The position numbers and the translations under genes are program-made. Shown piece after piece: positions 14,550 to 60,018 of a DNA stretch of 64,000 nucleotides. Source of the stretch: Draconibacterium orientale. GTDB taxonomy: Bacteria; Bacteroidota; Bacteroidia; Bacteroidales; Prolixibacteraceae. Location: assembly GCF_000626635.1 (NCBI RefSeq), contig NZ_CP007451.1, positions 5,066,501-5,130,500 on the forward strand, read 5' to 3'. Position 1 is the stretch's first letter. Each line of letters starts with the position of its first letter. Under the pieces are notes generated by a model. The model was not told where the DNA came from and made no database searches. It worked only from the letters and a program-made list of their open reading frames with translations.

Positions 14550-16388
14550 TTAACGCTCAGAAACCAGTTTATAAGCTTCATCATAATATTTACCCAGGTT
14601 CGACCAGTCGAAATGCATAGCCGCTTCCTCGCAACGATAACGCAACGCAATCCGGTCGCGGCGCGATAAGTTCACAAACTCGAACAACATGTTTGCCAAC
14701 TCTTCGGCTGCCCGGTTAAAATTGCCGTCAGTCCGATCAATAATAAACATTCCCTTGTTATCGTGGTCTTCAATGTTGTTTACCACATAGTCGCCAAATC
14801 CGGCCAGATTACTGGTTATCGATGGCAATCCACTGGCCAAACATTCCAATGGCGTATAACCCCACGGTTCGTACATACTTGGGAAAATACCGAGGTGACA
14901 TCCGCGAACAAACTGGGTGTAATCCATTTTAAAAAGCGGGTTCGTTGTGGCTATAAAATCAGGGTGATATACGATTTTCACCTTATCATGGCGGTTGTTC
15001 ACCAGGTTCGAGGTACGCAGGAAATTCAAAATTTCATCTTTTGCATCGTCAACCAACTGGTGCGTAACTACTTTGGGTAAGTTCTGTGTTTTCCAACTTT
15101 GTACGTTGCGTCGCAATTTCAAGCGCAGGTAATCGTCAACCAAAGCACCTAAATCCGGAAACTGATAATTACCTGTTATTGTTGTAATTTCTTTGTATAA
15201 ACGATCGCCCACCTGGTGTTGAATTTCCTCAACCACACGGCCAACATCTTCGATTTGCGCCTTCGATTGCAACACCTCAGGGTTAAATGAATAGAACGGG
15301 CGTTTTGTGATAAAGAAGGAAACAACAGTCATATCCGTTCCGGCTTGCTGCATTTTCCAGTTTAAACGGGCCAGTGCCTCAAGCGTTAAATCGTAACCCT
15401 TGTTTTGGTACTCGTAGCGCCCCGATGTAAAGAAATAAAGGGTTTTATCCAGATCAAACGAATAACTCTGGAAAAAGTGCCCCATTACAAACTCATGGAT
15501 TTTTTTCTTCACCTGAACGTGCTGGTTTTGCACTTCGTGCGTTGCCTCAAAACGTTCTATGTTCAGGCCATTTGGCAGAATCATATCAGGAGTTCGACCT
15601 AATAAATGCGTACACTCACGCGCTGTAACTTCACTTACCGTGGTAAAAACGTGTGCTCCGTGTGCCGATGCCCGCTCGATATTTGCAATAGGTGCCACAT
15701 TAAATTTATTGGCTTCTTCTTCCCAATTGTAAAAGGGCAAATGGCTGTAAAATTCCTGATCATTCATGGCCAGGTAACGCCCCAGCAATGTGGCATGGGT
15801 GGTAAATACCGTTTTTATATTCAGGTTCGATTTTCGTATTCCGGGTATTGGCAAACCGGCCATCCACTCATGAAAGTGTGCAATAATAGTTTCGTTACAG
15901 AAATCGCTTCCGCACAAATAATGGAAAAACTCTTTCACCTGGAATCCAAAGGCGGCAACCTTGTCGAGCAACTCATCGCCATCGGGAATGGCAATATTGT
16001 AATCTTTAAGGAGGAAATATTTTATTTCGCCCAATTTGTCGTAGATCGAATAAGGATTAAAAAGAATCACGTTCGGGCGGCCGGAAACAATCCACTGGCC
16101 GTAATACACTTCAAAGCCGCGCGACTGCATTTCCAGAACAGCTTTACCAATGGGTGTGGAGAAATCCGTTGCCGGATCGAAATGAGCTGCTGCCTGGTCG
16201 GCAAAATAAGGCCCGATAAGAAAATAATTCTCGTTCCCCCACTCTTTAATAACCGATGGTACTTTTGAGCGAATTACCGTGTAAATTCCCCCAACCTGGT
16301 TACAAACTTCCCACGCTACTTCAAAAAGCTTCGTGTTTTCGTTCCTCTCCTTTGTAGAATTCTCCTTATTTATGGTAGCTGCTTTCAT
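14550..16388 (-). CDS. Glycogen synthase, GT3 (eukaryote-like GYS) family
   Basis: 612 residues from the ATG at 16388 (MKAATINKENS); an in-frame ATG at 16436 would add 16 polar residues and cannot be excluded. The text FEVAWEVCNQVGGIYTVIRSK near the N-terminus is the UDP-glucose synthase signature of GT3 enzymes rather than GT5 GlgA. HFHEWMAGLPIPGIRKS, FTTHATLLGRYLA, LPNGLNIERFE and near the C-terminus YEPWGYTPLECLASGLPSITSNLAGFGDYV are all as in the family. GT3 enzymes elongate glycogen with alpha-1,4 links. A -33/-7 like promoter and a short palindrome lie upstream, then the 21-bp-phased array. Confidence 0.93.
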   Translation of the reverse strand: MKAATINKENSTKERNENTKLFEVAWEVCNQVGGIYTVIRSKVPSVIKEWGNENYFLIGPYFADQAAAHFDPATDFSTPIGKAVLEMQSRGFEVYYGQWIVSGRPNVILFNPYSIYDKLGEIKYFLLKDYNIAIPDGDELLDKVAAFGFQVKEFFHYLCGSDFCNETIIAHFHEWMAGLPIPGIRKSNLNIKTVFTTHATLLGRYLAMNDQEFYSHLPFYNWEEEANKFNVAPIANIERASAHGAHVFTTVSEVTARECTHLLGRTPDMILPNGLNIERFEATHEVQNQHVQVKKKIHEFVMGHFFQSYSFDLDKTLYFFTSGRYEYQNKGYDLTLEALARLNWKMQQAGTDMTVVSFFITKRPFYSFNPEVLQSKAQIEDVGRVVEEIQHQVGDRLYKEITTITGNYQFPDLGALVDDYLRLKLRRNVQSWKTQNLPKVVTHQLVDDAKDEILNFLRTSNLVNNRHDKVKIVYHPDFIATTNPLFKMDYTQFVRGCHLGIFPSMYEPWGYTPLECLASGLPSITSNLAGFGDYVVNNIEDHDNKGMFIIDRTDGNFNRAAEELANMLFEFVNLSRRDRIALRYRCEEAAMHFDWSNLGKYYDEAYKLVSER

Positions 16389-16443
16389 ATGTTTATTAAA
16401 GTTAGTTCTCTGGTTACTATTATATTCTGTGTTCACACAAATG

Positions 16444-16566: not shown

Positions 16567-16776
16567 TTATCACCAATCAAATTACACTTATCACCGGTAT
16601 ATTGCCCTCTATCACCGCACGAAAAGCTCTTATCTCCACCAATACGGGTGTTATCACCCGGTTTTTGATGCTTATCACCTGTTTCCAGGTGCTTATCACC
16701 CACATTTAACGTCTTATCACTTACAATCAGCGCATTACCACTTACTATTTTCCGGTTATCACCGGAGATGGCTTAC
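16567..16776. repeat. Array of ten 21-bp units: TTATCACC plus unrelated 13-bp spacers
   Basis: The octamer TTATCACC starts at 16567, 16588, 16609 (C first), 16630 (TTATCTCC), 16651, 16672, 16693, 16714 (last base T), 16735 (TTACCACT) and 16756: a spacing of exactly 21 bp nine times in a row. The 13 bases between copies share no sequence. Units before 16567 and after 16776 match in 4 of 8 or fewer positions, so the array has sharp edges. It lies in gene-free DNA about 65 bp upstream of the glycogen synthase -33 box. 21 bp is two turns of B-DNA, which puts every octamer on the same face. The only frame giving a seven-codon repeat (L-S-P-x-x-x-x) has a TGA in unit 5 and a TAG just upstream. DNA from 16777 to 16940 shows nothing I recognise. 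Confidence 0.9.
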
Positions 16777-16940
16777 ATTTTGTCGGTTTTATTCGATTAT
16801 TTTATCATTATTTCTATACTAGACGATAAAAAGCAGATAAATCGTCCTGAAAAATTGGGAAAGTTTAAAAGGCTGCTCAACTTGGGATCACCCGTAAAAT
16901 CCGGTGGAATAAAAATTTTATAGAAGCAAGAGAAGAACTG

Positions 16941-17339
16941 TAACTTTCTGCCTGCCGGCGGCTTTCATCTTTGCCTTGAAGCAAAGACGAAACAGAAAAT
17001 TCAAGGCTGCTTTTGATCCTTTCCCTGCGTTTTCATAAAACCTAAGTTCGGACGGGTGATCTCCTCGATTCCTCGGAGCTTCCCGCTCTCACTAAGGTTT
17101 CATTTCAACTCCGGGCAACGACCAAAAGAGGCCGTCCACTTATGCAACGAAAGCTACATCAGAGCGTGGCCTCGTCCGGTGAACCGGAAAACAAGTGGTG
17201 CCGGCGTTAAAAAATTACTGATGTTTGAGGAGGTACGACGAGTTTCAGGAATTTTAGCTGGCATCACGTAGATTTTCCGAGTGAAGTGGGCGCAGCCTTG
17301 GGTTTTCTGTCTACTCTTTGGGCTAAACCAAAGAGTAGA
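16941..17339 (+). repeat. About 400-bp intergenic repeat, copy 1 (inverted copy at 32 kb)
   Basis: The block matches the reverse complement of 32055-32452 over its whole length with scattered changes. Near its ends are inverted CAAGGCTGC / GCAGCCTTG sequences, flanked outside by small hairpins (CTTTGCCTTGAAGCAAAG at one end, CTCTTTGG with CCAAAGAG at the other). Short open frames inside look like by-products. This is a MITE-like, non-autonomous repeat; no transposase is present. The following 17340-17557 holds nothing recognisable. Confidence 0.75.
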
Positions 17340-17557: not shown

Positions 17558-17594
17558 CATAAAAAAACCGCTTATCTTTCGACAAGCGGTTTTT
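17558..17594 (-). terminator. Terminator after the ompH pair
   Basis: AAAAACCGCTT and AAGCGGTTTTT form an 11-bp stem with a 10-base loop; on the minus strand it ends in a T run. It lies 23 bp after the OmpH stop. Confidence 0.85.
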
Positions 17595-17616: not shown

Positions 17617-18141
17617 TTACTGAATACCCAATTTAGCTTTTACCAACGGTAAAACGTCAACACTTTGGTTCGACTTGTAAAGGATAGTTCTGTTTCCTGC
17701 TCCTGAATCGAAAACATAAATCAGACCTTGTTCTTTAGCTACGTCTTCAATTGCTTTTTCAGCTTTGTCAAAAACAGGGCCTAAAAGTTCGGCTTGTTTT
17801 TGTTGAACCTGCTGTTGTGCAGTTACCTGGTAATTCTGAATGCGTTGTTGTACGTCCTGAATTTCGGCAATCTTTGCATTTCTTTTAATATCAGAAACCT
17901 CTTCTCCCATTGCTTCAAATTCGCCTAATTTTACCTGGTAGTCTTTTTGCATTTCACCAAGAATTTCTTCCAGTTCTCCCTGGAAAGTATTAAACTCGGC
18001 TTCAGCAGCAGTTCTTTCCGGCATAACCTGAACCAAGGCCTGCAGGTCGATGTGTCCGAATTTCAAAGATTGCGCATTGGCAGCAGTATATGATGCTACA
18101 GTGAACATTAGCACTGCCATAATTTTCAATAAATTTCTCAT
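17617..18141 (-). CDS. OmpH/Skp family periplasmic chaperone (second copy)
   Basis: 174 residues from the ATG at 18141 (MRNLLKIMAVLMFTVASYTAANA, a signal peptide cleaved near ANAQ). An in-frame upstream start at 18171 would put 10 extra residues before the signal and also overlaps the promoter box, so it is rejected. The mature part is a long coiled coil (AEFNTFQGELEEILGEMQKDYQVKLGEFEAMGEEV) flanked by the short beta body, as in Skp, which holds unfolded outer-membrane proteins in the periplasm. It follows ompH-1 and bamA on the same strand but carries its own -7 box. Confidence 0.9.
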   Translation of the reverse strand: MRNLLKIMAVLMFTVASYTAANAQSLKFGHIDLQALVQVMPERTAAEAEFNTFQGELEEILGEMQKDYQVKLGEFEAMGEEVSDIKRNAKIAEIQDVQQRIQNYQVTAQQQVQQKQAELLGPVFDKAEKAIEDVAKEQGLIYVFDSGAGNRTILYKSNQSVDVLPLVKAKLGIQ

Positions 18142-18168
18142 AGTCAATGTAGTCTTAATTTTTGCTTG

Positions 18169-18176
18169 CAAATATA
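18169..18176 (-). promoter_or_regulatory. -7 promoter box for the second ompH gene
   Basis: TATATTTG on the minus strand matches TAnnTTTG exactly and lies 28 bp before the start at 18141. Confidence 0.45.
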
Positions 18177-54508: not shown

Positions 54509-54667
54509 TACCAATTTGATGATAAAATGCCGTATTGGATATGCCGGTTATTTTCCGTTTGTACAAGGCGAAAAATTTTAGTATAGCCGAGCTACGTTAT
54601 AATTTTTCAACGCAGTAGAAACGGAAAAGAACAAATTTACATGCGGCATTTTATGTTCAATTTGGTA
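54509..54667. repeat. 159-bp hairpin MITE-like element, copy B
   Basis: Same length and orientation as copy A (47056-47214), with a handful of base differences, and bounded by TAA on both sides. Not coding. Confidence 0.8.
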
Positions 54668-54785
54668 TAATTATTGGTTCGCCAACGCGTACATTCTGCA
54701 TGAAACGATTGCCTGACTTCAATTGTTAGTTTCTTGTCTTCAAGCGCTCATTTCTTAACTTGATGCGCTCATTGATAAAATCCAC

Positions 54786-59724: not shown

Positions 59725-60018
59725 CGATTATTGTTAAATGCGGAAGAAGCCATTTTTCTGCAAAAATGCATCTCTCCGCACTTAAAGAGCCTCATTTTTT
59801 TGCAAAAATGCATCTCTCCGCACTTAAAGGGCCTCATTTTCTTGTAAAAATGCATCTCTCCGCACCTGGAGGGGGGCATTATTTTGTAAAAACACTGCCT
59901 TCCGCGATTAAAGGGGGCCATTTTTTTATAAAACCGCGGCTCTCCACATGCGGAAGGATACGCTTTTAGACAAAAACGCTGCCCTTTAACTACAGAAACA
60001 AACGTTTTTGCAATGTAA
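59725..60018. repeat. Seven 42-bp units of a degenerate tandem array between ridA and lptD
   Basis: Unit starts at 59725, 59767, 59809, 59851, 59893, 59935 and 59977: spacing exactly 42 bp throughout. Units 59767 and 59809 are nearly identical (TGCATCTCTCCGCACTTAAA core, then CATTTTTT and GCAAAAA or GTAAAAA); outer units keep only CTCTCCGC- or AAAGGGGCC-type positions and the closing A run. Both strands stay open in a frame with a 14-residue repeat (MHLSALKGPHFLVK on plus), but there is no start or signal, so it is treated as non-coding. The stretch fills most of the 404-bp gap. Confidence 0.8.

Follow-up and report, generated by a model that had tools for sequence, protein, structure and literature searches.

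The region upstream of the glycogen synthase gene of Draconibacterium orientale holds an array of ten 21-bp units that is real, far beyond chance, and that is a member of a family of intergenic elements in Draconibacterium. Across this family the spacer letters are nearly free apart from their composition, and the short repeated word and its pitch look selected. Within the window (the whole 64,000-nucleotide stretch analysed here), the array and its surroundings are laid out as follows:

16567..16776, plus strand: array of ten 21-bp units, each a 7-8 bp word (TTATCACC, exact in 6 of 10) followed by a 13-bp spacer
16645..16660, plus strand: spacer end and next word, a possible small hairpin (CGGGTG-TTAT-CACCCG) and then a T-run, terminator-like by consensus only
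16756..16790, plus strand: element centre, made of the last word and GGAGATGGCTTACATTTTGTCGG, resembling the array of G029 at the same locus
14550..16436, minus strand: glycogen synthase gene (PF05693), context outside the element, the array lying 5' of the gene
17563..17594, minus strand: terminator-like site after the OmpH-like gene, context
17617..18171, minus strand: OmpH-like gene (PF03938), context, its 3' end facing the array

All ten units lie where the first-pass annotation had placed them, with a unit-to-unit distance of exactly 21 bp in 9 of 9 steps. The octamers, which had been described as identical, are exactly TTATCACC in six cases only (16567, 16588, 16651, 16672, 16693 and 16756), and the other four are variants that differ from it by one or two substitutions (CTATCACC at 16609, TTATCTCC at 16630, TTATCACT at 16714 and TTACCACT at 16735). 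Across the 1180-bp intergenic region, the top score for 8 columns in 10 units was 75 out of 80, reached at period 21 and start 16567, whereas 60 dinucleotide shuffles scored no higher than 51 (periods 12-40). The right end is not sharp, contrary to the initial description: the trailing GGAGATGGCTTACATTTTGTCGG, to about 16790, belongs to the element, the match of profile model R1 reached 16777-16787 in two runs, and the inverted right arm known from other copies is decayed in the window copy.

Exact TTATCACC-N13-TTATCACC pairs occur 11 times forward and twice in reverse in the 5.13 Mb single-contig genome to which the window belongs (none for a control pattern), and were found in 5 of 61 genomes searched. 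Five TTATCACC arrays lie in this genome, near 1.224, 1.439, 2.502, 3.930 and 5.083 Mb (the last being the window array), and the same architecture recurs at 3.192 Mb in a sixth element, whose word is TTCTCCC. Among 37 genomes of the genus, a profile built from 9 TTATCACC elements matched 15 (E up to 0.01) and one built from 12 TTCTCCC elements matched 18 (E up to 0.001), the two lists overlapping and including some weak matches (L066, L098) that do not look like arrays. The spaced word recurs in relatives, with period and word constant while spacers and copy number vary between them, an outcome in favour of the first-pass annotation, which had proposed these checks. No array at 20-22 bp was seen in 400 kb of G031, a genome placed in Draconibacterium. 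At wider levels, where the profile searches favour similar words at the same pitch, profile R2 matched 6 of 295 genomes of the order, including that of D. orientale (in the other five the matches are 21-bp tandem arrays, of which one is broken up by unread bases), and profile R1 matched 3 of 296 genomes of the phylum, namely D. orientale, L271 (a genuine array of TTGTCAC at 21 bp) and L272 (apparently coding). A 20-letter pattern run against the species genome collection returned 18 stretches, 6 of them from Draconibacterium; only L143 among six pattern-matched stretches examined is an array.

Some of these loci carry further features. A group II intron match (Rfam RF00029, L003 1719-1809) comes shortly after the array near 1.224 Mb, and a frame there resembles a reverse transcriptase by eye. 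A 245-aa protein (L019 1735-2472, minus strand, with ...FWKNEARLKGYRNIYKNKHKK... at its end) accompanies arrays in several genomes, G003 having two copies of it linked to arrays (L048 and L064), and gave no match in Pfam.

The anatomy of the elements was drawn from 37 extracted copies, two of which are weak (G008 with 2 units, G012_1804 with 1). The general plan is a word and 13-bp spacer repeated in up to about ten units, and 227 of 257 steps in the wider family measure 21 bp, with 24 of 20 bp and 6 of 22 bp. One unit is often 20 bp long with an A tract, and another carries TACATTT. At the centre, the word abuts half of a word in inverted orientation (TTCTCCCGCGGGAGA; TTATCACCGGAGAGA; TTATCCGAGGGGATAA), beyond which the better copies continue with inverted words, two or three in number and spaced by 20-21 bp. 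Words differ between arrays: TTATCACT is the word of the G029 array at the window's locus (7 of 8 units, the eighth being CTATCACT), TTATCCG is that of the G025 array (8 of 8 units), and mixed arrays occur in G006 and G028. The spacers, thought at first to be unrelated, do share a composition profile across the family (GC-rich beside the word and A/T-rich at unit positions 12-16 in both main word types, with G or C at unit position 21 in both) and hold A/T tracts one turn from the word; their letters are otherwise nearly free.

Substitutions were counted in orthologous arrays, which comprise 26 of the 37 extracted and fall into 7 locus groups. With the array taken to start at the first unit matching at 6 of 8 letters, and with the inverted right arm included in the flanks, differences amounted to 162/2273 in word letters (0.071; 0.051-0.156 by group), 789/3144 in spacers (0.251; 0.214-0.573 by group) and 2033/8518 in flanks (0.239), so that spacers, which evolve at about the rate of the flanks, change 3.5 times as fast as word letters. 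Word letters 4 and 5 are nearly fixed (0.004 and 0.011), letter 8 is free (0.237), and the base preceding the word is partly kept (0.142). A like result came from 24 arrays with a match filter. Between the window and G029 copies at the same locus, 10 of 64 word letters and 51 of 89 spacer letters differ; the contrast is weak in the FWK TTATCACC pair (8/55 in words vs. 20/76 in spacers). Indels follow the unit as well: in pairwise counts, where shared ancestry leaves the pairs non-independent, 25 of the 33 indels inside 24 arrays were 21, 22, 42, 62 or 83 bp long and the other 8 were 1-2 bp, while the 159 gaps outside arrays were spread over most lengths, with 21 bp in only 12. Predicted curvature, as given by one wedge-parameter model for 31 arrays that share ancestry, lay above the spacer-shuffled mean in 30 (mean 0.315 vs. 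0.192), although only 9 reached the top 5% singly, and the window array was outside it (16 of 100 shuffles as high). Taken together, the conservation of the word, the mostly whole-unit indels and the curvature bias make word and pitch look selected: sites are kept in sequence and in helical phase, and the spacer sequence is nearly free apart from its composition.

A scan without any assumed word, run on the first 1.6 Mb of the D. orientale genome for arrays of at least 5 units at periods 14-32, returned 12, 17 and 11 arrays at periods 20, 21 and 22 (one array often being counted at neighbouring periods), as compared to 0-7 at every other period and to 0-2 in one block-shuffled copy of the same 1.6 Mb. 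Further words appeared in this way (CCCTGTT, TCCTGC, TTCCTTA and GTCCTAC), along with CATTTCCGG at two loci and TTCACTTGACA at two loci with a 22 bp period. Several scan arrays have inverted arms around a palindromic centre (e.g., CCTGTTCAACAGG, CCTGCAGGA), and at least two phased inverted words were present in 6 of 17 arrays at period 21 vs. 3 of 28 at periods 14-19 and 23-30. All 17 period-21 arrays, a few of which are by eye simple tandem or low-complexity repeats outside the class described here, lie between genes of at least 100 aa in a crude ORF-based gene call, one being overlapped by a doubtful 101-aa frame, and they occur in all four gene orientations.

Evolutionarily, a tree of 30 elements (words included) grouped them by locus and by word type. 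With all groups taken together, locus labels changed 11 times along this tree vs. 20.0 when shuffled (0 of 200 shuffles as low), the DUF and sec groups singly being not clearly clustered. The window and G029 copies formed a clade in this tree (99/96). In a tree of 28 elements based on spacers only, these two copies came apart within the TTCTCCC arrays: that of the window grouped, by a long branch, with those of FWKNE (94/84), and that of G029 lay in another part. Their orthology therefore rests on locus and centre. At the FWKNE locus, spacers of the TTATCACC arrays are 0.61 identical to those of other TTATCACC arrays and 0.39 to those of FWKNE TTCTCCC arrays, which means that an element was replaced there as a whole; in-place conversion of the word was rejected on the same identities.

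The glycogen synthase neighborhood of the window array looks incidental. The gene is present in 36 of 37 genomes of the genus, and at least five relatives (G009, G024, G002, G030 and G034) have no array upstream of it, the hairpin corresponding to 17563..17594 sitting close after the glgA upstream region in these five. We thus rejected a regulation specific to glycogen synthase, and a constant association of array and gene, which the first pass had proposed to test, is not supported, as other arrays adjoin unrelated genes. Arrays have been gained or lost between relatives and are therefore not essential. No consistent regulator gene was noticed beside arrays when neighboring ORFs were read by eye and five proteins scanned with Pfam. 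The window array is also adjoined by a ~300-bp intergenic repeat (CCTAAGTTCGGACGGGTGATCTCC..., window 17000-17310), near-copies of which lie upstream of a U32-peptidase-like gene in G024 (L173) and G005 (L175).

A period of 21 bp corresponds to two helix turns. Conserved words, free spacers of fixed length, sites on one helix face, curvature and mirrored arms together fit a cooperative DNA-binding rail, and we give an even chance to the array being the row of binding sites of a cooperative, sequence-specific protein on curved DNA, with all sites on one face of the helix. Of the readings proposed in the first-pass annotation, the cooperative DNA-binding array is the best supported. The array would then act in cis as a double-stranded DNA element offering equal sites to a putative sequence-specific protein, which would sit on one helix face every two turns and bind cooperatively along a pre-curved segment; in intact copies, it would load from two sides towards the palindromic centre. 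The contacted sequence would be the 7-8 bp word, in effect G+TTATCAC or G+TTCTCCC, and the spacer would matter only through its length and an A/T tract roughly a helix turn away from the word. Binding and oligomerisation of such a protein may serve a nucleoprotein boundary or a regulatory rail between genes. As different arrays carry different words, several proteins, or one changing its specificity, would be implied. It is tempting to speculate, if only tentatively, that each locus has its own 7-8 letter word on a two-turn, curved and palindrome-mirrored track read by paralogous proteins, i.e., a multi-word, address-like nucleoprotein system, which may have a role in Bacteroidota chromosome organisation, insulation or the control of replication or recombination. 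If the words are indeed read by proteins, one genome carries, between ordinary genes, a large number of phased sites in parallel that differ in specificity, which would provide a testable handle on Bacteroidota chromosome organisation or intergenic regulation: the word would predict the binding site, the pitch would predict cooperativity, and the differently worded arrays of a single genome would serve as natural controls.

Other readings have to be weighed against this cooperative row of binding sites. Copies that are dispersed and fall into subfamilies, arms inverted about a centre, presence or absence at the window locus and alike copies at the FWK and pep loci in G000 could also point to foldback or MITE-like non-autonomous mobile elements, with the arrays as (sub)terminal inverted repeats recognised by a transposase and the word as the specificity of a transposase family; there is a precedent in Bacteroidales in BrickBuilt, described in the available part of its report as 23-nt repeats within a MITE (PMC4596501). 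We consider this origin unlikely, as the elements cluster by locus and are mostly vertical, and word letters are constrained at fixed loci, which is unexpected for dead MITEs. Array-less sites exist for the window locus, but the ends there cannot be placed to the exact base, and neither a terminal repeat nor a target-site duplication could be defined. Even if these were foldback elements, the constraint on word and helical pitch would need explaining. A decaying minisatellite without function, in which a 21-bp unit expanded and its spacers mutated with words still present, is improbable and disfavoured: under neutrality, letters of words and of spacers should be lost equally, when word letters in fact change far less, and arrays hold their pitch although indels of most lengths occur in the flanks, even though near-perfect 21-bp tandem arrays in other genomes of the order (L161, L162, L163 and L165) show what a young array could look like. 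The relic of a gene with a 7-codon repeat, another early proposal, can be dismissed with near certainty. It would account for 21 bp as 7 codons and for the two frames open across the window array, yet relatives share no frame that stays open in every array: of the 34 arrays examined, 6 are closed in all six frames, and 20-bp units put successive repeats out of frame. The GDK-type minus frame of the window, judged by eye, is bounded by stop codons at either end and lacks an ATG, the first GTG in it falling within the array.

A structured non-coding RNA, in which words would pair with spacer ends and inverted words to form hairpins along a transcript, is in our opinion rather improbable. Folding z-scores are strong for the CCCTGTT array (-5.06) and lower for the window array (-3.45 and -2.57 on the minus and plus strands) and G000 3930k (-1.92), and stems are in slight excess within spacers, but a strong score would follow from inverted words alone. 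One centre pair is changed on both sides across word types (C-G to A-U, 8 of 21 rows), as would equally be expected of a DNA palindrome; with this single pair across types, and two-sided changes in 0 of 24 and 0 of 15 predicted pairs within each type, covarying RNA helices were rejected. Spacers moreover evolve like flanks, pairing needs no identity of all words in an array, and orientation relative to genes is not constant. A covariance search against Rfam (7 loci, E up to 5) gave three matches, all outside arrays, and none to the arrays themselves, which leaves the guide-RNA reading of the first pass unsupported. The elements do not fit a CRISPR array (the word has 7-8 bp vs. repeats over 20 bp, and spacers align position by position between orthologues), and we also rejected a plasmid or phage iteron origin (at least six arrays lie on one 5.13 Mb contig, and searches of phages and plasmids with one whole element, the L019 copy, gave no match). 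These tests covered 34 arrays for frames, 31 for curvature, and 30 or 28 (spacers only) for trees, out of the 37 extracted.

Several known systems share part of this organization. AraC half-sites, LytTR boxes and plasmid iterons are direct repeats ~21-22 bp apart on one helix face, with DNA bending; AraC and LytTR operators consist of two sites beside a regulated promoter, and iterons occur at plasmid origins with a Rep gene, whereas the Draconibacterium arrays are chromosomal and have up to ten sites and an inverted arm. The REP/BIME of enterobacteria are likewise intergenic and dispersed, with a palindromic arrangement and subfamilies, but REP units are long hairpins with no short word at a fixed pitch. 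The nearest published relatives found are BrickBuilt and the TAACTGA heptamers, which differ, as far as the available text of these reports goes, in unit conservation, period or word diversity. BrickBuilt and the PgRS/464 MITEs are also intergenic elements of Bacteroidales with many copies, a fixed short period, conserved and variable sites, and positions common to strains (PMC4596501, available part). The 23-nt repeats of BrickBuilt in Porphyromonas gingivalis differ by 0-11% within an element, follow one consensus for 19 elements, and come with IS5-like terminal repeats and a non-repetitive leader and tail (same source, same part). By comparison, the Draconibacterium arrays keep only 7-8 of 21 positions, unlike a BrickBuilt-type minisatellite MITE with most of the unit conserved, and have inverted arms, a period of 20-22 and array-specific words. 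The TAACTGA heptamers of Beggiatoaceae, Cyanobacteria and some Bacteroidetes (five of the latter among the hosts) are likewise 7-letter words arrayed between genes, but here a single heptamer is directly repeated, for the most part immediately ahead of start codons in the main genome, and the available portion of that report mentions neither 13-bp spacers nor phased inverted arms (PMC4679880). A full-text literature search of partial coverage found no description of the helix-phased word arrays of Draconibacterium.

Other repeats of related length were seen in passing. The window holds a 42/84-bp tandem repeat (CATTTTTTTGCAAAAATGCATCTCTCCGCACTTAAAGGGCCT, 59750-59933; 42 = 2 x 21) and two to three 21-bp units of the TTCTTAACTTGATGCGCTCAT type (54600-54780), the latter beside a dispersed sequence ending in TCAATTTGGTAT, which is likewise found next to the 1.224 Mb array (L003). 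Finally, 21-bp GTTCCTT arrays with two alternating spacer types, and hence a 42-bp higher order, lie upstream of a U32-peptidase-like gene in L176 and L177. They may represent a young array; the genome of the window has a TTATCACC array at that locus.
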